From Candidatus Micrarchaeota archaeon (GTDB lineage: Archaea; Micrarchaeota; Micrarchaeia; Micrarchaeales; Micrarchaeaceae): DNA of 64,000 nucleotides. The notes under the pieces are model-generated. The model did no database searches, was not told the DNA's origin, and saw nothing but the letters and a program-made list of their open reading frames with translations. The position numbers and the translations under genes are program-made. This document shows positions 5,380-48,531 of the stretch, piece by piece. Position 1 is the first letter of the stretch. Every line of letters begins with the position of its first letter. The stretch lies in NCBI GenBank assembly GCA_028866575.1, contig JAGWHU010000002.1:62001-126000 (forward strand), in the 5' to 3' direction.

Positions 5380-5414
5380 GTAGTCTTGAGGAATGTAAAG
5401 AGAGAAATCGCAAC
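5380..5414 (+). other. 5' strand of the pre-16S processing stem
   Basis: GTAGTCTTGAGG (5380-5391) pairs with CCTCAAGGCTAC at 6989-7000, and GAGAGAAATCGC (5400-5411) pairs with GCGATTCTCTC at 6970-6980 with one bulged A. Archaeal pre-16S RNA is excised by the splicing endonuclease from such a stem. The same 5' strand can also pair with the duplicated copy at 7422-7454, where the first block matches perfectly over 12 bp. Confidence 0.82.
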
Positions 5415-5459: not shown

Positions 5460-6948
5460 ACTCCAGTCGATGCTGCTGGAGGACACTGCTATCAGATTTC
5501 GACAGCCATGCAAGTTAGCTCAGCGACTTCGCTGGGCAGCGTACGGCTCAGTAACACGTGGTCAATCTACCGTAAAGAGGGGGATAACGATGGGAAACTG
5601 TCGCTAATACCCCATAGGTTAGGACACCTGGAAGGAGTCCTAGCCAAAAAGGTTGCAAATTGGAGCATTACCGCTTTACGATGAGACTGCGGCGGATCAG
5701 GCTGTTGGCGGGGTAACGGCCCACCAAACCGATAACCTGTAGGGGATGTGAGAGCATAGGCCCCGAGAAGGGCACTGAGACAAGGGCCCTAGCGCTACGG
5801 CGTGCAGCAGGCGCGCAAACTCCACAATGCGCGTAAGCGTGATGGGGGGAATCTGAGCGATTCACTTCGGTGAATCTTTTGCCAAGTTTAGTCAGCTTGG
5901 CGAATAAGTGCTGGGCAAGACCGGTGGCAGCCGCCACGGTAATACCGGCAGCACAAGTGGTGTCCACGATTATTGGGCTTAAAGCGCTCGTAGCTGGCAA
6001 GTACCGTCTCGTGTGAAATATTGGCGCTCAACGTCAATGCGGGCACGAGATACCTACTTGCTAGGGAGCGGGTGAGGTCAGGAGTACTTATGGGGAAGGG
6101 GTAAAATCCTATAATCCTATAAGGACTAACGGTGGCGAAGGCGCCTGACTAGAACGCATCCGACAGTGAGGGGCGAAGGCTAGGAGAACGAATCGGATTA
6201 GATACCCGAGTAGCCCTAGCAGTAAATCATGCAGACTCTGATGTTGCACATATCTCGAATATGTGCAGTACCGTAGCGCAAGTGTTAAGTCTGCCGCCTG
6301 GGGAGTACGGTCGCAAGATTGAAACTTAAAGCAATTGGCGGGGGAGCACCACAAGGGGTGGATGCTGCGGTTTAATTGAATTCAACGTCGGAAATATTAC
6401 CAGGAGCGACGGCAGGATGAAGGCCAGACTAAAGATCTTGCTTGACGAGCCGAGAGGTAGTGCATGGCGATCGTCAGCTCGTGGTGTGAACTGTCCGGTT
6501 AAGTCCGGTAACGAGCGAGACCTTCGCTAACAGTTGCTACCGGTGTAGAGATACACCGGGCACTCTGTTAGGACCGCCTCTGTTTAAAGAGGAGGAAGGA
6601 GAGGGCAACGGTACGTCAGTATGCTCTGAATCTTCTGGGCAACACGTGGCATACAAAGGTTGGCACAATGAGATGCAACACCGAGAGGTGAAGCAAATCC
6701 CCTAAAACCAGCCCGAGTTCGGATTGAGGGCTGAAACTCGCCCTCATGAAGCTGGAATCCCTAGTAATCGCATGTCACTATCGTGCGGTGAATATGTCCC
6801 AGCTCCTTGCACACACCGCCTGCCAAGTCACCCAAGTGGGGTCCTAGTGAGGCAGTGCCTTTCAAGGCATTTTCGAGTTAGGGTTCCGTGAGGAGGGCTA
6901 AGGCATAACAAGGTATCCGTAGGGGAACCTGCGGATAGATCACCTCGA
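5460..6948 (+). rRNA. rrs: 16S ribosomal RNA
   Basis: Clear archaeal 16S landmarks occur in order: ACTCCAGTCGATGCTGC then TGGAGG at the 5' end, GCCATGCAAGT, GTGGCAGCCGCCACGGTAAT, ATTAGATACCCGAGTAG, a GCACCACAAGGGGTGGATGC segment, GCACACACCGCC, and GTAGGGGAACCTGCGGAT. The 3' end GATCACCTCGA carries the CACCUC anti-Shine-Dalgarno sequence. Length is about 1,489 nt with no intron or large insertion. It has its own promoter and is not followed by 23S. The last 46 nt and the flank are duplicated 456 bp downstream. Confidence 0.97.
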
Positions 6949-7034
6949 ATACAATTAGTGTGCAACAGCGCGATTCTCTCGCATTAAACCTCAAGGCTAC
7001 GATTTTTGTAAGCTCAGCGCGAGCTTTATAATAA
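6903..7034 (+). repeat. Direct repeat, copy 1: 16S 3' end plus downstream flank
   Basis: The segment starting GCATAACAAGG in mature 16S and running ~85-130 bp past its end recurs at 7359-7490. Identity is near complete over the 16S part and declines downstream. This copy contains the functional anti-Shine-Dalgarno sequence and the 3' strand of the processing stem (6970-7000). Between the copies lies a single small gene, so this resembles an attachment-site duplication around an inserted element. Confidence 0.9.
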
Positions 7035-7073
7035 TCCATTTGGAAAGGAAAAGTAGATTAATAGTGGTATCCT

Positions 7074-7364
7074 ATGACCAAACAACAAAAGGTAAAGACC
7101 AATTATAAAGAACGTGTATGGTCTGTTGAAGAAGGAGAAAGGTTAATGCATCAGAGAAATCCAAATAATTTAATGCTTAGGTCTGCTGAACTTGAAGCAA
7201 AAAGAGATTATGATGGGGCTATAAAGGCAATAGAAAGTGCAATTAAAAAGAATCCGAAAACAACACCATTAACTTTTTACCTTTCTGATTTGTTAAGGCG
7301 TAAACAGATATACGAATCCGGAATAGCACGCGAATCAAAAAAGCATAAAACTGCCAGAGCATAA
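7074..7364 (+). CDS. Small TPR-like protein inserted at the 16S 3' end
   Basis: A 96-aa basic, AT-rich gene. Residues ~36-66 (a helix pair containing AKRDYDGAIKAIESAI and then a Lys-Asn-Pro) look like one tetratricopeptide repeat; the rest is unrecognised. The gene lies wholly between the two copies of the 16S 3'-end repeat, and its TAA stop is supplied by the second copy (GCATAACAAGG). Its base composition differs from the chromosome on both sides. It is the only cargo in this ~456-bp segment. Function unknown; a protein-binding adaptor is the most that can be inferred. Confidence 0.7.
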   Translation: MTKQQKVKTNYKERVWSVEEGERLMHQRNPNNLMLRSAELEAKRDYDGAIKAIESAIKKNPKTTPLTFYLSDLLRRKQIYESGIARESKKHKTARA

Positions 7365-7490
7365 CAAGGTATCCGTAGGGGAACCTGCGGATAGATCACT
7401 CGAATATAATTAGTGTGCAAAGTTGCGTTTCCTCGCATTAAACCTCAAGACTACGATTTTTTGAAGGATTAGCGTGAGCTGTATTTGGAA
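7359..7490 (+). repeat. Direct repeat, copy 2: displaced 16S 3' end plus flank
   Basis: This matches 6903-7034. It lacks one C of the anti-Shine-Dalgarno block (CACTCG against CACCTCG), so it is not a functional 16S terminus, yet CCTCAAGACTAC at 7443-7454 pairs perfectly with the 16S leader at 5380-5391. The genes on both sides (7074-7364 and 7469-7918) end inside the repeat. Confidence 0.88.
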
Positions 7491-7918
7491 TTATTGGATA
7501 ATACCTTTTGAATTTGTTTATAATGGCCGAAAATATGATTAGCGTCTGTCCCATCAAAAAGCCATCCGAATCTTTTTGAGTCGGCTTTTAAATCAGTTAT
7601 CCCTATCCGCTTCATCTCCCTTTTTACTATCTTATACTGGTGCTTCCATTCTTTTATCAAAGCACTATTGGAATATGTCTTGTATCGTTTGACTGACTTT
7701 TTATTGAAATCATCAAAATTATTTGTATGAGACCACCAGGCCCTTTTACGCGTTTTATATAGCTTGTATAATGTCCTTGCATCCTCTCTTTCCCAACCGA
7801 CTAAATGAGCAACAACATCCTTAATTGTCCAATTTTCGTTCACTTTTAGTTTCCAATCACCTTTGTCCAGTCTTTCTAGTAATTTAAAGAATTCTTTATG
7901 AAGTTTATCAACTTCCAC
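7469..7918 (-). CDS. DinB / maleylpyruvate-isomerase-like four-helix protein
   Basis: The 149-aa protein fits the DinB superfamily, small four-helix bundles that bind a metal through three His and often act in thiol- or damage-related chemistry. The helix WTIKDVVAHLVGWE near residues 31-44 carries the first His, and HIFGHYKQI near residues 129-137 carries the other two. The gene is AT-rich, unlike the chromosome around it, and its last codons and stop lie inside the duplicated 16S flank, so it probably arrived with the insertion at this site. It is 28 bp downstream of the co-oriented SGNH hydrolase gene. Confidence 0.75.
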   Translation of the reverse strand: MEVDKLHKEFFKLLERLDKGDWKLKVNENWTIKDVVAHLVGWEREDARTLYKLYKTRKRAWWSHTNNFDDFNKKSVKRYKTYSNSALIKEWKHQYKIVKREMKRIGITDLKADSKRFGWLFDGTDANHIFGHYKQIQKVLSNNSKYSSR

Positions 7919-7946
7919 AAAATCACCCGGTATATACCATCTTTAT

Positions 7947-8585
7947 TCACAATAAGTCATTCTTTTTCAAGAAATTCCTTACTTTTGTAAAAATAAATCT
8001 GTAGCCCTTGGCATTAGGATGCAGGCCATCTTCCAATAAAATTTTGTAATCCTTTTTCAGCATTATCTTATTTATATCCAGAAAAGGCAAATTCTCGTGT
8101 TTGCAACATTCTTTGATTATGTTGTTGAATCTTGTCACCCTCTCATTTGTCAATACAGTACCACTGCGCTGCAAAGTCTTTGATTCGTCAACTGGAAGAA
8201 GCCCCAGGAATGCCACCTTCTGATTTAATGATGTTGCATTTCTTATGAGTTCTAAAACGTTGCTTCTGAATTTGCCTTCTTTAATCAGTATATTCTCTTC
8301 AGAGACAAAGTTATTGTACTTTGTATCGTTAGTCCCTATCGCTATTATCGTTGTGCAAGCATCCATTTGCTCCTTGGATCTTAGTCTGGCTTTTGTTTCG
8401 ATGTTAAGCCTTTCCAGTAATTCAGATGAGTCTTGGCCAGGTATCCCTAAATTATAGACTTTATTCCCATCGTTAAGCTGTTCAAACCATTTCTTCAGAT
8501 AACCGCACCAACCACCATTATAGCCTTCCCCGAAGGTGATGCTGTCCCCAAAGCACAAAATCGTACTCAAACAATCATTCCACAC
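7947..8585 (-). CDS. SGNH/GDSL-family hydrolase
   Basis: A 212-aa esterase-like protein. Block I is CFGDSITFGEG near residues 12-22 with the nucleophilic Ser, a Gly is present in block II (GIPGQD), block III is IAIGTNDT with Asn, and block V is EDGLHPNAKGY with the Asp-x-x-His pair. These enzymes cleave ester bonds in lipids, glycans or small acyl compounds. There is no signal peptide, so it should act in the cytoplasm. AT-rich composition and co-orientation with the DinB-like gene suggest one acquired block next to the 16S gene. Confidence 0.85.
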   Translation of the reverse strand: MWNDCLSTILCFGDSITFGEGYNGGWCGYLKKWFEQLNDGNKVYNLGIPGQDSSELLERLNIETKARLRSKEQMDACTTIIAIGTNDTKYNNFVSEENILIKEGKFRSNVLELIRNATSLNQKVAFLGLLPVDESKTLQRSGTVLTNERVTRFNNIIKECCKHENLPFLDINKIMLKKDYKILLEDGLHPNAKGYRFIFTKVRNFLKKNDLL

Positions 8586-8663
8586 AGTTTCATTAGATTA
8601 CCAACATATATCTTTATTGAATACTTTATTATATTTTCAAAGATCAATAAAAACGTGTTATAA

Positions 8664-8966
8664 ATGGCCGAATCCAAATTTGCACAGCCAAAAAGCAAGG
8701 ATTGGACAAAATCGTTAACCTCCAATCCCTTTATCCAGAAGAAACTTGCCGAAAGGGATCCGATAGAGGTTATGATGAGCGGAGCCGACCGTAAAACAGG
8801 TAATTTCGCCCTGCTTTTCAGCTGCATTGCCTTGAGCAAGCATGCAGAGATAACAGGGGTATTGGACACCACTTCGAGTGCTTTTCAGGCTGCTGCAAGG
8901 AGCGAGGTTTGGAATTACTGGGTCAAGTACCCAATATCTTCAATAAAGGCGCAATTGAGGAAATAG
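8664..8966 (+). CDS. Hypothetical protein
   Basis: A 100-aa protein that I do not recognise, mixed alpha and basic, without membrane segments. It is preceded by a TATA-like sequence at about 8625-8637, which places transcription start almost at the ATG, so it is probably leaderless. Base composition is closer to the chromosome than that of the two AT-rich genes to its left. Its C terminus (SIKAQLRK) resembles a phrase near the end of the downstream protein (SIKAQLINR), which may reflect shared ancestry of a terminal helix. It lies 19 bp upstream of the LAGLIDADG-like gene. Confidence 0.6.
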   Translation: MAESKFAQPKSKDWTKSLTSNPFIQKKLAERDPIEVMMSGADRKTGNFALLFSCIALSKHAEITGVLDTTSSAFQAAARSEVWNYWVKYPISSIKAQLRK

Positions 8967-8985
8967 GGATTTATGAGGTGGACAA

Positions 8986-9507
8986 ATGGCGAAAAAACTA
9001 CCCTTGAGCCCTGACATCAGCTACTTCCTTGGAGCATATCGCTGCAACCGCATTTACAGGAATATTTACCTGCATGCTGCAGACAAGAAGCTTGTCGAAC
9101 GCTTTGTCAAGATAGCGATAATGGAATTGGGCACCAAGGCTGATGCTGTAAGTGTTACAATCGACGGCAAATTTGCAAATGCGGAGATTGGCAATTCCAA
9201 GCTAAAGAAGCTGCTAGATAAAGCACTGGAGGAGAGGGACAGGATATTCAAGTACAGGAACGAGTATTCGGCAAGCTATTTCGCCGCGATGTTCGACTGC
9301 AACGGGGCGATGGACAGGAAGGGAATGTTCGTGAGGGGAATGGACTCATACGACAGGATCATTCTCGAAAGGATAGGCTTCCATACAAAAGGCGGCTCCG
9401 GAAAATGCTATTTCAGGAACGGAAACGACTTCTTCATGTTCATCGCGCCATTCAGCATAAAGGCGCAACTGATCAACAGGTACGTCGAGGAGAGGAGCAC
9501 AGGCTAA
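8986..9507 (+). CDS. Degenerate LAGLIDADG homing-endonuclease-like protein
   Basis: The 173-aa protein has two helices positioned like LAGLIDADG motifs: ISYFLGAYRCNR near residues 11-22 and SYFAAMFDCNGAM near residues 91-103, each followed by alternating strand and helix. In the first the catalytic acidic position is Arg; in the second one Asp remains but the next acidic position is Asn. It is therefore likely to bind nucleic acid without cutting, as in domesticated relatives. It has a good Shine-Dalgarno (GAGGTG at 8975-8980). It lies 2 kb from the 16S gene, a classic homing target, but no intron is seen there now. Confidence 0.6.
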   Translation: MAKKLPLSPDISYFLGAYRCNRIYRNIYLHAADKKLVERFVKIAIMELGTKADAVSVTIDGKFANAEIGNSKLKKLLDKALEERDRIFKYRNEYSASYFAAMFDCNGAMDRKGMFVRGMDSYDRIILERIGFHTKGGSGKCYFRNGNDFFMFIAPFSIKAQLINRYVEERSTG

Positions 9508-9523
9508 TGAAACGGATATGAGC

Positions 9524-9829
9524 TCACCTGCTCAGGAGCTCGATAAGAACGCCCTCATTGTCATTCTCGGCCGCGCGGACCCTCTTTCGCACCTTGCATT
9601 TCCTGCATTCGTATATTATTATGAACCCGTTCCTGTCGTTTTCAGACTTTACAGGCTCCATGAGGCCGCCGCAGTCCGAAGCCCTGTCCCCGGGGTTTAT
9701 GTCCATGTGCTTGCTCCACAGGCACCTTGGGCAGTGATCCGTATACCCGGTGCCTTTTACGTTCTTTTTGCACACGTCACACGTGAAATTTTCCTGGTTC
9801 TTCGAAAATCTCCTGGAATTTTGCTCCAT
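9524..9829 (-). CDS. RNHCP-domain zinc-binding protein
   Basis: The 101-aa product matches the RNHCP family of small zinc-binding proteins of unknown function. After a RRFSKNQENFTC lead comes CDVC, then DHCPRCLWSKHMD, a PGDR turn, CGGLMEP, and a second pair CRKC. The diagnostic RNHCP tetrad reads TDHCP here. The start was set at the ATG at 9829, which has GGAGTG upstream; the longer frame begins with TTG at 9847. It is divergent from the fumarase gene with 61 bp between, so both promoters lie in that gap. Confidence 0.85.
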   Translation of the reverse strand: MEQNSRRFSKNQENFTCDVCKKNVKGTGYTDHCPRCLWSKHMDINPGDRASDCGGLMEPVKSENDRNGFIIIYECRKCKVRKRVRAAENDNEGVLIELLSR

Positions 9830-40420: not shown

Positions 40421-40978
40421 ATGAAAGCCAAATTTGAGATATTCATTCTTATTAAGAATAAGCAGGCAACTACATTAACTAAACAGATAGCAACAAGATA
40501 TAAAACCTACAGTGCTTTAAGAGATACAAAAGGGCCACATATTTCTTTCATTTATTTGAACAAGAAGTTAAATGAGGATAGAATTAATGAGCTGATTGGG
40601 TACTATGAAGACAAATTAAAGAAGATAAAGCCATTTTATTTAGAGGTTAGTGGTATAAGTTTCTTTAGGAAATATTATGGCCAACATCACTTAAATTATG
40701 CTGTAATATTGAAAGTAATTCCTGATAAAAACCTTGTAAATCTGAATCGCATTTTTAATAGCGGGATTAAAGATATAGATCATAGAACTTTCAACAAGTT
40801 CCAGCCACATATAAGCCTTGCCAGAACGGATCTAGATAAAGAGAAATTTTATGGTATACTAAAGGATTACAAAGATCATAAGATAAAATTTAAGGTTTGG
40901 TTAACTTGTATTTACGCCGGTACTAGAAGAAAAAAGAGACAAAAATGGAAACTTGTTAAAATGAAATTAGGCACATAA
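40421..40978 (+). CDS. 2H phosphoesterase (2'-5' RNA ligase / CPDase-like)
   Basis: The 185-aa protein has two His-x-Ser motifs, GPHISFIYL near residues 43-51 and FQPHISLART near 127-136, the hallmark of 2H phosphoesterases. These act on 2',3'-cyclic or 2'-5' phosphodiester bonds in RNA ends or nucleotides. The gene is strongly AT-rich, unlike the chromosome. Its TAA stop lies inside the first bases of the composite repeat that follows, so gene and repeat form one unit. Confidence 0.85.
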   Translation: MKAKFEIFILIKNKQATTLTKQIATRYKTYSALRDTKGPHISFIYLNKKLNEDRINELIGYYEDKLKKIKPFYLEVSGISFFRKYYGQHHLNYAVILKVIPDKNLVNLNRIFNSGIKDIDHRTFNKFQPHISLARTDLDKEKFYGILKDYKDHKIKFKVWLTCIYAGTRRKKRQKWKLVKMKLGT

Positions 40979-41095
40979 CCTGTCATACCAACGCCATGAC
41001 GAGGCGTCAAAACTAAGCATTATCTTTCGATGACAAACTAAGCGAAATAATCCAATTTCGCCCGAAGCACAGGATGCGCATCAGATACATCTCCT
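40972..41095 (+). repeat. Island repeat R1 (long form)
   Basis: This copy has the full layout: a ~85-bp flank (40972-41057) shared with R6 and R7, the tRNA-Asn 3'-end decamer GCCCGAAGCA (41060-41069), and a 3' tail ACAGGATGCGCATCAG shared with R2-R4. The flank has hairpin ACGCC/GGCGT (40991-41007) with loop ATGACGA, and outer blocks TGTCAT (40981-40986) and ATGACA (41030-41035) that are fully complementary. CTAAGC occurs twice (41012 and 41038). Confidence 0.85.
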
Positions 41096-46011: not shown

Positions 46012-46041
46012 CGCCCGAAGCAGGCAACAGGATGAGAAGTC
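46012..46041 (+). repeat. Island repeat R5
   Basis: CGCCCGAAGCAGGCAACAGG followed by ATGAGAAGTCC, the same as the 3' part of R6 (47222-47252). The long flank is not present here. It marks the left end of the second 1.2-kb duplicated unit. Confidence 0.85.
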
Positions 46042-46121
46042 CCACGCCCGGTGTTTTTTCTAGGCATAGATTTCACTTTTAGCATTACTATGTTAACTTA
46101 TATAAAATGGTTTGTAAATTT

Positions 46122-46397
46122 CTACACCCTTAGCGCTATTTTATGATTATTCTTCTTTGATTCTCTACCAAATATTTTATGCGGTATCCCAAGTCTTTCA
46201 AGCTCCTTGACTTGAAAACCCCAAACAATGGAAACGTGTTCACCGTCTATATAAGCTCCTTGTCGAACACCACCTATTTCTGACATTGCCTCTTTCCCCT
46301 CTATTCTAGCCTTCCTATTGGGAAATGTCAACATGTACGTATTTTCATCTTTTATTTGAGATCCATTTTGTTCAAGTTTTGCTTTTTCCTTAGTCAT
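46122..46397 (-). CDS. Small partner protein of duplicated module, copy 2
   Basis: A 91-aa protein, homologous to the product of 47297-47590. Shared positions include LEQNGSQIKDENTYMLTFP against IEQNEMQVEDRKTYAITFP, a following R-K-x-R-I-x-G, a central Gly-x-Tyr, then QVKELERLGIP against QVKVLDKLGIP, and a C-terminal Ala-Leu-Arg. No named domain is recognised. It always follows the larger gene on the same strand and precedes a repeat. A partner or regulator of the larger protein is likely. Confidence 0.7.
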   Translation of the reverse strand: MTKEKAKLEQNGSQIKDENTYMLTFPNRKARIEGKEAMSEIGGVRQGAYIDGEHVSIVWGFQVKELERLGIPHKIFGRESKKNNHKIALRV

Positions 46398-46439
46398 AAA
46401 ATCCCTTATTTTATCTTATATATAGAATTCAAGGTTATT

Positions 46440-47051
46440 TTAATTTTGCTTTTTTCTCAAATTTCTTATTTCCCTTAATAATGGTTTAACATCAGGTGAA
46501 ATGCCTGGTACGATTGTAATTTCACTCTGTTCGATTACTATTATCTTCTCTTTCGAATGCTCTTCTAATATTCGCCTTAATTTTTTGAAATATTCCATAG
46601 CATTATTATGTCGGAGAGTATAAACTTCATAACGTGCATGTTTATTTACAATTGTTTTCTTTTTCTTATTTATCCATGCACCTCTTATTGTAGGTGATGT
46701 AAGTATATGCGGTACTCCAATGGGCGTTTCAGGTAAAAACGGTAAGAATTCTTTTGGAATGCTCTTTAATTCTTCTCTTGAATATTTTGCTTTATATCTA
46801 AAATTTGTGTAACCACCTAAATGTTTTCCAAAATGTACTTCAAGCGTGTCCAGATCTGCACTTGTAAAAATTGATTTTTCTACGGGAAAAGGTTTTCTAG
46901 GTATCTTCTTCTCTTCGCTTATGGGTAATAAAAGGGTAAACTTGAAATGATAACCTTCCAATACTGGTTTAAAGACACCGGTGTAAGATGTTCTAAATAC
47001 TGCTAATTTCCTGCCTAGTAACTTTTCTTTATTTACATCTTTCGTGCTCAT
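46440..47051 (-). CDS. Larger protein of duplicated two-gene module, copy 2
   Basis: A 203-aa basic protein, homologous to the product of 47651-48283 over its full length. Conserved blocks include LEGYHFKFTLLLPISEEK, a PHILTSPTIRGAW stretch, VNKHARYEVYTLRH, and the C-terminal KEKIIVIEQSEITIVPGIS. The C terminus is a basic coiled-coil-like helix. I recognise no family. The gene is strongly AT-rich. The promoter and repeat R6 lie upstream. Confidence 0.72.
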   Translation of the reverse strand: MSTKDVNKEKLLGRKLAVFRTSYTGVFKPVLEGYHFKFTLLLPISEEKKIPRKPFPVEKSIFTSADLDTLEVHFGKHLGGYTNFRYKAKYSREELKSIPKEFLPFLPETPIGVPHILTSPTIRGAWINKKKKTIVNKHARYEVYTLRHNNAMEYFKKLRRILEEHSKEKIIVIEQSEITIVPGISPDVKPLLREIRNLRKKQN

Positions 47052-47134
47052 TTTATCACAAAATTATACTGTTTATAAGATATAATAATGTTTCAGAAAG
47101 ATGGAATTTTAGATGTGTATTTTTGATTTTAAGG

Positions 47135-47252
47135 CACCTAACCTGCCATACTAACGCCCTTACAAGGCGTACAGACTAAGCATTCTCTTTAGACGACAAG
47201 CTAAGCAAAATAAGCAAATTTCGCCCGAAGCAGGCAACAGGATGAGAAGTCC
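47135..47252 (+). repeat. Island repeat R6 (long form)
   Basis: The flank runs from CACCTAACC (47135) through hairpin ACGCC/GGCGT with loop CTTACAA (47154-47170), then CTAAGC twice, and ends with the tRNA-tail CGCCCGAAGCAG (47222-47233) and GCAACAGGATGAGAAGTCC as in R5. A GCCC-TTTTGTTTT-GGGC hairpin follows at 47256-47272, which may end transcription of the neighbouring gene. Confidence 0.87.
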
Positions 47253-47296
47253 TTCGCCCTTTTGTTTTGGGCATAGTTACACCAATAATATTGAAT

Positions 47297-47590
47297 TTAC
47301 CTTCTTAATGCAACAGATTTACTGTTTCCATTTGATTTTCTTTTGAAGAATTCCCAAGGTATCCCTAATTTATCAAGAACTTTGACCTGGTAGCCTTTGG
47401 CTACTGTTACATCTTGGCCATCATCCGACATGCTTGATGATGTACCTGGATATATTCCCATAAGTATATAGTTTCCATCTATTCTAGATTTGCGTGTAGG
47501 AAATGTTATTGCATAGGTTTTACGGTCTTCTACTTGCATTTCATTTTGTTCTATTTTTTTGACTTTACTTCTTGTAAGCTTTTCAGACAT
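47297..47590 (-). CDS. Small partner protein of duplicated module, copy 1
   Basis: A 97-aa protein homologous to the product of 46122-46397 (see that entry for matching positions). It contains KTYAITFPTRKSRIDGNY near residues 25-42 and KGYQVKVLDKLGIPWEFFKR near 66-85. It follows the larger module gene by 60 bp on the same strand. The ATG at 47590 was chosen over a GTG three codons upstream. Function unknown. Confidence 0.7.
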   Translation of the reverse strand: MSEKLTRSKVKKIEQNEMQVEDRKTYAITFPTRKSRIDGNYILMGIYPGTSSSMSDDGQDVTVAKGYQVKVLDKLGIPWEFFKRKSNGNSKSVALRR

Positions 47591-47650
47591 CAATATCACA
47601 TATTAATTGTGTTTGTTTGAATATAAATATGTTACGGCAATTATAATTTG

Positions 47651-48283
47651 TCACATAGATTTTATCTTTTGCTTTAACCTTTTGTTATCATTTTTCAATT
47701 TCTCAACTTTTCTTAAGAGGTTTCTAGTTTCTGATGAAATGCTTGGAAGTATAGTAACTTCTGACTGTTCGATTAGAATTACTTTTTCTTTTGAGTATTT
47801 CTCTAGTATCTCTTTTAGATCCTTGAAATATTCAACAGCTTTATCATGTCTTTGGGTATAAATATGATATTGAGCATGCTCATTAACAATAGGTCTTCTA
47901 TTTTCGTCTACCCAAGAACCTTTTAGTGTAGGTGAAGTTAATATATGTGGCGATACTCCAGGTAATGGCATTTCAGGAAGTATATATTTTGGTATGTTTC
48001 CTATTTCGCGCTTTGTATATGTTATGTCGTATCTAAATTGGGTGACACCTTTGAATTGACTAATGAAAAGTTTCCTGAGTGCATCTAAATCAGTCTTTCC
48101 GAAGATTATCTGTTGTATGGGGTATTTTCCCTTTGTTACTTTTTCTTCGCTTATTGGAAGAAATATACTAAATTTGTAGTGATATCCCTCAAGCGTCGGC
48201 TTGAAGAATTCTAAATGTTTATCATACGTTCTCAGTTGCTTCAAGCTCTTGCTAAGTGGTTCTTCTTTAGTTATACCTTTCAT
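47651..48283 (-). CDS. Larger protein of duplicated two-gene module, copy 1
   Basis: A 210-aa basic protein, homolog of the product of 46440-47051. It has LEGYHYKFSIFLPISEEK, then PHILTSPTLKGSW, VNEHAQYHIYTQRHDKAVEY and KEKVILIEQSEVTILPSIS, ending in a Lys-rich helix. I do not recognise a family. It lies next to the tRNA-Asn gene with its promoter just inside the flank of R7. Its own DNA is strongly AT-rich. Confidence 0.72.
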   Translation of the reverse strand: MKGITKEEPLSKSLKQLRTYDKHLEFFKPTLEGYHYKFSIFLPISEEKVTKGKYPIQQIIFGKTDLDALRKLFISQFKGVTQFRYDITYTKREIGNIPKYILPEMPLPGVSPHILTSPTLKGSWVDENRRPIVNEHAQYHIYTQRHDKAVEYFKDLKEILEKYSKEKVILIEQSEVTILPSISSETRNLLRKVEKLKNDNKRLKQKIKSM

Positions 48284-48366
48284 TTTATCGCATAATTATA
48301 CCGCCAAGGAAATATAATAATGTTTCAGAAAGATGGAATTTTCGGAAGTATATTTTGATTTTAGGA

Positions 48367-48466
48367 CACATAACCTGACATATTAACGCCCAACCAAGGC
48401 GTACAAATCAAGCATTCTCTTCCGACGACAAGTTAAGCAAAATAAGCCATTTTCGCCCGAAGCAGG
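48367..48466 (+). repeat. Island repeat R7 (long form, contiguous with tRNA-Asn)
   Basis: The flank CACATAACC (48367) through hairpin ACGCC/GGCGT with loop CAACCAA and the CTAAGC-like pair (TCAAGC, GTTAAGC) ends in CGCCCGAAGCAGG, which here is the real 3' end of tRNA-Asn (48454-48466). R1 and R6 share this flank, so they are displaced copies of the tRNA downstream region. Confidence 0.9.
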
Positions 48467-48525
48467 GATCGAACCTGCAACCTATTGGTTAACAGCCAAT
48501 CGCTCTACCATTGAGCTATTCGGGC
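48454..48525 (-). tRNA. tRNA-Asn (GUU)
   Basis: Acceptor GCCCGAA/TTCGGGC, D arm GCTC/GAGC, anticodon stem ATTGG/CCAAT with loop CTGTTAA, and T arm GCAGG-TTCGATC-CCTGC form a clean 72-nt cloverleaf. The discriminator is G, no CCA is encoded, and there is no intron. Its 3' end (GCCCGAAGCA on the plus strand) is repeated six more times across the island to the left. Confidence 0.96.
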
Positions 48526-48531
48526 ATATCC

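Follow-up and report, generated by a model that had tools for sequence, protein, structure and literature searches.

A probable one-gene cassette inserted at the 3' end of the 16S rRNA gene in a micrarchaeotal genome

Introduction

Genes for tRNA and tmRNA are classical attachment sites, and the tycheposons and other tRNA-targeting islands of streamlined genomes are cargo islands placed at tRNA genes via tyrosine recombinases. In the tyrosine-integrase islands described at the 3' ends of tRNA and tmRNA genes (PMC4383910, PMC8371274, PMC6563490), the 3' end of the RNA gene is present as a direct repeat, the gene is restored by the element, the displaced fragment lies at the far end, tandem arrays occur and the recombination cores are short. 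In a thaumarchaeal survey, the median core length was 17 bp, with cores as short as 8, and the sites listed were tRNA genes (39), intergenic regions (15) and protein genes (14), with rRNA genes absent (PMC6563490). The word rRNA is absent from the main text of both an archaeal review (PMC8371274) and the Islander paper (PMC4383910), and a literature search for rRNA genes as integrase targets found no such report, which is weak evidence of absence because most subscription papers fell outside its scope. These sources agree with the initial annotation of the locus analyzed here, which had called an rRNA 3' end a very unusual target.

Results

Duplication of the 16S rRNA 3' end

The window, that is, the whole 64,000-nt stretch of DNA that was analyzed (G000:C2:62001-126000), belongs to a 1.13-Mb micrarchaeotal MAG in 53 contigs. 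Its 16S rRNA gene (5460-6948, forward strand; Rfam RF01959, 1393.6 bits) is the sole copy found, a search of the genome having returned no second 16S gene, and the model is matched over its full length (1-1478) using the first copy of a duplicated 3' end. According to the initial annotation, the last 46 nt of the gene and its 3' flank recur 456 bp downstream, around a gene encoding 96 aa. This was confirmed, with flank homology extending over ~80 nt: 41 nt at 6903-6943 are repeated exactly at 7359-7399, with a start-to-start offset of 456 bp, and are followed by two more in-register blocks (33 nt at 82% and 35 nt at 91%), the homology reaching about 7029 in copy 1 and 7487 in copy 2. Alignment of the 46 nt (6903-6948) with the 45 nt of the displaced copy (7359-7403, forward strand) also bears out the reported loss of one C from the anti-Shine-Dalgarno block, with ATCACCTC reading ATCACTC in copy 2; the missing C of the terminal CACCTC fits a loss of function there. 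The 3' flanks of copy 1 (6949-7029) and copy 2 (7404-7487), both on the forward strand, share 73% identity with gaps counted (61/83 columns).

A chance origin of the repeat is excluded, since no other site with three or fewer mismatches to its 16-nt start was found within the 64-kb window, and since the 13-mer GCATAACAAGGTA occurs three times in the whole genome (in the 16S gene, in copy 2 and at a paralog of the 96-aa gene), whereas its reversed control occurs 0 times. No tRNA gene lies within the repeat region, and a third copy of the 16S flank, sought at 7495-9600, was not found. As a side observation, nearly all relatives shown from this order have a 16S gene that ends in ATCACCTC, with GA or AA next, and not in ATCACCTCCT; the anti-Shine-Dalgarno block is thus shortened in this order, as seen at 6940-6950 of the window and in the 16S ends of the relatives.

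Both 3' flanks can be folded with the 16S leader. The 5' strand of the pre-16S processing stem (5380-5414, forward strand) co-folds with the 3' strands in copy 1 (6970-7000) and copy 2 (7422-7454) into an archaeal bulge-helix-bulge stem with a 12-bp outer helix, 3-nt bulges and an inner helix, and all six relatives with a foldable leader and trailer show this architecture. The predicted energy of interaction with the leader is -27.9 kcal/mol for copy 1 and -18.7 kcal/mol for copy 2; copy 1 pairs better in the inner helix, and copy 2 alone gives a perfect outer helix.

Empty sites in related genomes

The locus was compared across 301 Micrarchaeota genomes, 216 of which had a detectable 16S 3' end, and only the genome studied here, among these 216, carries two 16S 3' ends on one contig. 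Five other genomes with two 16S 3' ends each (G019, G050, G090, G226 and G273) were rejected as second cases, their copies lying on different contigs. Relatives present a single 3' flank without the 96-aa gene, as integration at this site would predict. In a same-genus relative with a 96% identical 16S (G001), the single flank is followed after 145 nt by a 170-aa gene homologous to window 8986-9507 (57% identity) and then by an RNHCP gene, as here. The 96-aa gene is absent in that genome and beside the 16S gene of every other relative examined.

What the window has in excess of G001 is the 96-aa gene together with the second 16S end and another ~1.5 kb (7469-8966). The latter stretch encodes a DinB/MDMPI-like protein and a GDSL lipase, both at about 36% GC, as well as a 100-aa ORF; all three sit between the second 16S flank and the conserved gene at 8986 and are absent beside the 16S genes of relatives. 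It is possibly a second insertion with no visible far end, and it was not assigned to the cassette proposed below because no third flank copy marks its end. The gene at 8986-9507 encodes a LAGLIDADG-like protein of 170-173 aa that lies directly 3' of 16S in this genus, and most relatives have homologs of it either within a 16S interruption or 3' of the 16S gene, a distribution suggesting that an endonuclease gene escaped from its intron or underwent exaptation. The 16S gene of G001 itself (L048, G001:C51, 6059-7993) carries a LAGLIDADG-encoding insertion after position about 138, and in many family members the gene is interrupted after position about 1052.

The 96-aa gene and its paralog

The only gene between the repeats (7074-7364, forward strand) has a GC content of 35%, against 49% for the window. 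It is a real protein gene under purifying selection, since third-position changes dominate in the comparison with its sole paralog in the genome (L002, contig C4; 66% amino acid identity over the aligned part): changes by codon position number 23, 21 and 52, with dS saturated. The predicted structure of the protein is all-helical (mean pLDDT 68.8) and looks like one TPR hairpin with an additional long helix, with weak Foldseek matches (best E 0.23). No Pfam TPR model scored above its gathering threshold (best TPR_14, 18.8 bits vs 23.5), making the protein weakly TPR-like, and Pfam returned no match to a homing endonuclease, LAGLIDADG or other. No relatives of the protein were found in viral contigs or phage records, and PADLOC and PHROGs yielded nothing useful.

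The gene ends in AAAACTGCCAGAGCATAACAAGGTATCCGTAGG, and copy 2 opens with the six bases GCA TAA, which are the gene's final sense codon and stop. The 3' end of the paralog is the same 13-mer as at 7359, after which the sequence diverges from 16S. The shared 13 nt take in the stop codon and 7 noncoding nt, and the latter are not a leftover of recent common descent, because synonymous sites between the two genes are saturated. This shared end, lacking the rest of 16S, fits a recombination core carried by an element, for which the proposed left (attL) and right (attR) copies, both on the forward strand, would lie inside 16S at 6903-6915 and at 7359-7371, the latter taking in the final codon and the stop of the 96-aa gene.

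At its other end, the paralog locus is cut off, the contig ending in a 149-nt sequence common to five contig ends; the paralog's own pair of cores is thus not visible, its left end being lost at a multi-copy contig break. No pre-insertion site of the paralog was identified in the readable rtcB loci of relatives. The 149-nt sequence (L047:13125-13274 and the ends of C9, C11, C21 and C22) is 99-100% identical among its copies, contains a small inverted repeat, CACGACTTTTAAGTCGT, and probably represents the terminus of a multi-copy insertion sequence on which the assembly broke. In the same region (L047:12690-12820, contig C4), a 17-nt tRNA-Arg(GCG) 3' end directly follows the rtcB stop codon, 70 nt from the paralog and 86 kb from the intact tRNA-Arg. 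With tRNA-Arg(GCG) lying just upstream of rtcB in another genome (G008), this fragment suggests an old insertion or rearrangement.

Homologs and cassettes at tRNA 3' ends

The initial annotation had proposed looking for the 96-aa gene beside other RNA genes, and a homolog (117 aa, 30% identity) was found in such a setting in a genome from another genus of the same family (G004). There it resides in an element of 1.83 kb that opens with a tyrosine integrase gene (PF00589, 1.1e-12) at the 3' end of a tRNA-Leu gene and is closed by a perfect 32-nt repeat of this 3' end, within an array of four copies. In this and two other genomes, a protein of the 96-aa family adjoins an asparagine-synthetase-like gene (PF00733). 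The pairing is seen in tRNA-Leu elements of G004 and G131 and also in G141, with a remnant in G162, and the partner has a C-terminal motif of the CxxCHGG...CxxCG type (L049, L052, L055, L173). A scan of genome contigs returned one homolog, on a contig of a Candidatus Micrarchaeota MAG that is identical to the G162 contig; this G162 homolog adjoins the remnant of an asparagine-synthetase-like gene, has no tRNA within the 16-20 kb examined, and is followed by a stretch similar to the 149-nt contig-end sequence. Given the pairing, the ancestral setting of the family was probably a multi-gene element, of which the 16S cassette would be a stripped form; as a guess, the 96-aa protein might play a small adaptor-like role beside the asparagine-synthetase-like enzyme.

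In the genome studied here, displaced tRNA 3' ends were located downstream on the same strand for tRNA-Asp, tRNA-Leu, both tRNA-Glu, tRNA-Thr and tRNA-Asn. When displaced ends were defined as matches of at least 15 of the last 16 nt, within 4 kb and on the same strand, downstream copies were found for 4 of the 37 tRNAs, compared with 0 upstream and 0 in eight shuffles; the tRNA-Asn and tRNA-Thr cassettes are marked by shorter cores. Small integrase-less cassettes lie at the ends of tRNA-Asn (two), tRNA-Asp, tRNA-Glu (two) and tRNA-Thr, and most tRNA-end units in the genome span 0.5-1.25 kb and lack an integrase. At tRNA-Asp, a 0.84-kb cassette precedes a region that is far larger, bears an integrase and contains a third copy of the tRNA end, and it is plausible that the small cassette uses the enzyme of the larger element. 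The ~15.3 kb between the second and third copies (L043:228-15609, contig C5) contain two integrase ORFs, a 464-aa ORF and genes for large Thr/Ser-rich surface-type proteins, and look like an integrated element or provirus.

Within the window, the tRNA-Asn gene (48453-48526) and two cassettes of about 1.2 kb without integrase occupy 46012-48526 on the reverse strand, each cassette ending in the tRNA 3' end CCTGCTTCGGGCG. A relative of these cassettes (L099) lies between two copies of the same core with no tRNA there, which parallels the occurrence of the 96-aa paralog away from 16S. The family is dispersed in copies of about 1.1-1.2 kb (46012-48526, also 40967-41069, L099:2865-4017 and L078:10706-11674) that have a conserved left arm of about 100-180 nt and a conserved right end, GGGACTTCTCATCCTGTTGCCTGCTTCGGGCG. 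The two copies at tRNA-Asn are arranged in tandem and, like the L078 copy, carry two genes of about 200 and 90-100 aa, while the L099 copy carries different genes. The link that the initial annotation drew between this array and the 16S locus holds for mechanism and anatomy; it does not extend to a single element family, the sequences being unrelated.

Proposed insertion into the 16S gene

The empty sites, the integrase-bearing tRNA-Leu element with a homolog and the cassettes at tRNA ends support the earlier reading of the locus as integration at the 3' end of a stable RNA gene. The anatomy is that of 3'-end integration, but the 46 nt are not all core, as the paralog indicates a core of about 13 nt. 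We therefore consider it likely that a non-autonomous one-gene cassette of 456 bp (6903-7358, forward strand; the repeat offset), absent from all relatives examined, was inserted site-specifically into the 16S gene, most probably by a tyrosine integrase acting in trans. An integrase from another element would have recombined the core of the cassette with the 16S core at 6903-6915, which starts 46 nt before the end of the gene and spans about 13 bp. The cassette would then have supplied the remaining 33 nt of 16S, including the terminal CACCUC, together with about 80 nt of 3' flank containing the 3' strand of the processing stem, followed by the 96-aa gene, and the original 16S 3' end of the host would have been shifted 456 bp downstream to 7359-7487. 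Because the cassette would bring its own 16S continuation and processing strand, 16S would stay complete and processable.

In events of this kind, the element contributes what lies rightward of the left core, and the present 16S terminus and flank would thus be cassette DNA. By this logic of site-specific recombination, we infer that copy 1 would be element-derived and copy 2 the displaced host end, although both copies still pair with the leader. The flanks are about equally far from that of G001 (54% identity for copy 1, 57% for copy 2). The cassette trailer is closer to the other copy in its own genome (73%) than to that of any relative (at most 61%), which points to acquisition within the lineage and would also fit a local duplication. 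The 73% is similar to the divergence between two co-assembled 16S variants of G019 (75%). On these sequence comparisons, the 16S end of the cassette would have come from this lineage or a very near relative, or else the copies diverged after insertion.

Several observations temper this proposal. The PF00589 matches of the genome lie near tRNA genes, with candidate integrases next to tRNA-Arg and tRNA-Asp, away from the repeats, and no integrase was found in the 16S cassette or beside a 16S-like core. The insertion is a single case in one fragmented MAG, and it counts against the proposal that homolog-bearing elements in other genera target tRNA-Leu rather than 16S.

Alternative origins of the repeat

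The most serious competitor, although unlikely in our judgment, is a local tandem duplication, in which the gene was already located 3' of 16S and slippage or unequal crossover duplicated the 16S end around it without a recombinase. The two flanks are indeed each other's closest relatives at 73% identity, the unit is short and no integrase is present. Such an event would, however, leave a second copy of the gene after 7487, and there is none; nor is the gene found downstream of 16S in any relative examined. It also offers no reason for the left boundary to fall exactly on the last codon of the 96-aa gene, or for the paralog to share the 13-nt end without 16S, including 7 noncoding nt, despite saturated synonymous sites.

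Somewhat less probable still is an artefact of assembly or strain mixture that joined the 16S 3' ends of different strains. In a 53-contig MAG a short k-mer could cross the 41-nt exact repeat, and other genomes in the set do carry two 16S variants, albeit on separate contigs. The repeat sits inside a 164-kb contig, and a chimera would still need molecules in which the gene runs into 16S-type sequence, while the paralog displays the gene-to-core junction without 16S and comparable cassettes at tRNA ends follow the same pattern.

Homologous recombination with an incoming plasmid or with chromosomal DNA of a relative carrying the gene next to a 16S 3' end, with no site-specific step, would account for 41 nt of perfect identity followed by a diverged homologous flank, and the flank divergence does resemble that between the G019 variants. 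We regard it as improbable, since it leaves unexplained both why the paralog has the 13-nt end away from 16S and the array of tRNA-end cassettes with 13-32-nt cores. Finally, interrupted 16S genes in many relatives and the LAGLIDADG-encoding insertion of G001 speak for the idea that the 456 nt form an intron or twintron of 16S and were not inserted behind the gene, but we give it almost no credence, because the 96-aa protein is not a homing endonuclease and the insert is bounded by 41-nt direct repeats and holds a complete 16S end and processing strand, so that no splicing is needed.

Discussion

Site-specific insertion of a small cassette into the 16S gene, the favored reading, would have several consequences. 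As 16S is single-copy in this genome, the insertion must restore a functional rRNA at once, and the restoration spans both the 16S 3' terminus and a half-helix pairing with the leader 1.5 kb upstream, making the locus a clear-cut case for gauging the limits of gene restoration by an element. The insertion would also put the cargo gene behind the rRNA promoter. We give roughly even chances to a broader hypothesis, in which the cassette lineage uses the 16S 3' end as its attachment site, carries a working substitute for the terminal 33 nt and the processing strand, so that mobile DNA would provide this organism with the decoding-end RNA of its ribosome and the maturation signal, and belongs to a wider Micrarchaeota pool of integrase-less cassettes of one or two genes, with 13-30-nt cores at structural RNA 3' ends, that would be moved in trans. 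The data suggest a reservoir of very small RNA-gene-end cassettes in the Micrarchaeota that would be missed by island finders requiring an integrase.

Of the features of tDNA-type elements, the 16S locus displays the bounding 3'-end repeat, an intact target gene (with copy 1 taken as belonging to the element) and an empty site in relatives; the integrase inside the element and the tRNA or tmRNA target are lacking. The tRNA-Leu element of 1.83 kb in G004 resembles it in encoding a homolog of the 96-aa protein and in being bounded by repeats of an RNA gene 3' end, and differs in its own integrase, its asparagine-synthetase-like partner gene and its tRNA target. The tRNA-Asn cassettes (46012-48526) are likewise small, lack an integrase, have their core of about 13 nt at the 3' end of an RNA and occur also at a non-tRNA site, but their genes and arms are unrelated, two lie in tandem and their arm is no copy of the host RNA flank. 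Tycheposons work similarly but are bacterial and mostly larger.

The closest counterparts are the tyrosine-integrase islands at tRNA and tmRNA 3' ends (PMC4383910, PMC8371274, PMC6563490), with which the locus shares the direct repeat of the RNA gene 3' end, the gene restored by the element, the displaced fragment at the far end, the tandem arrays and the short cores. Unlike them, the 16S cassette targets an rRNA, has no integrase and measures only 456 bp, and the part that it restores includes an RNA-processing strand outside the mature RNA. The cassette as proposed works like such an island and, with no integrase inside, is not classed as an autonomous member.
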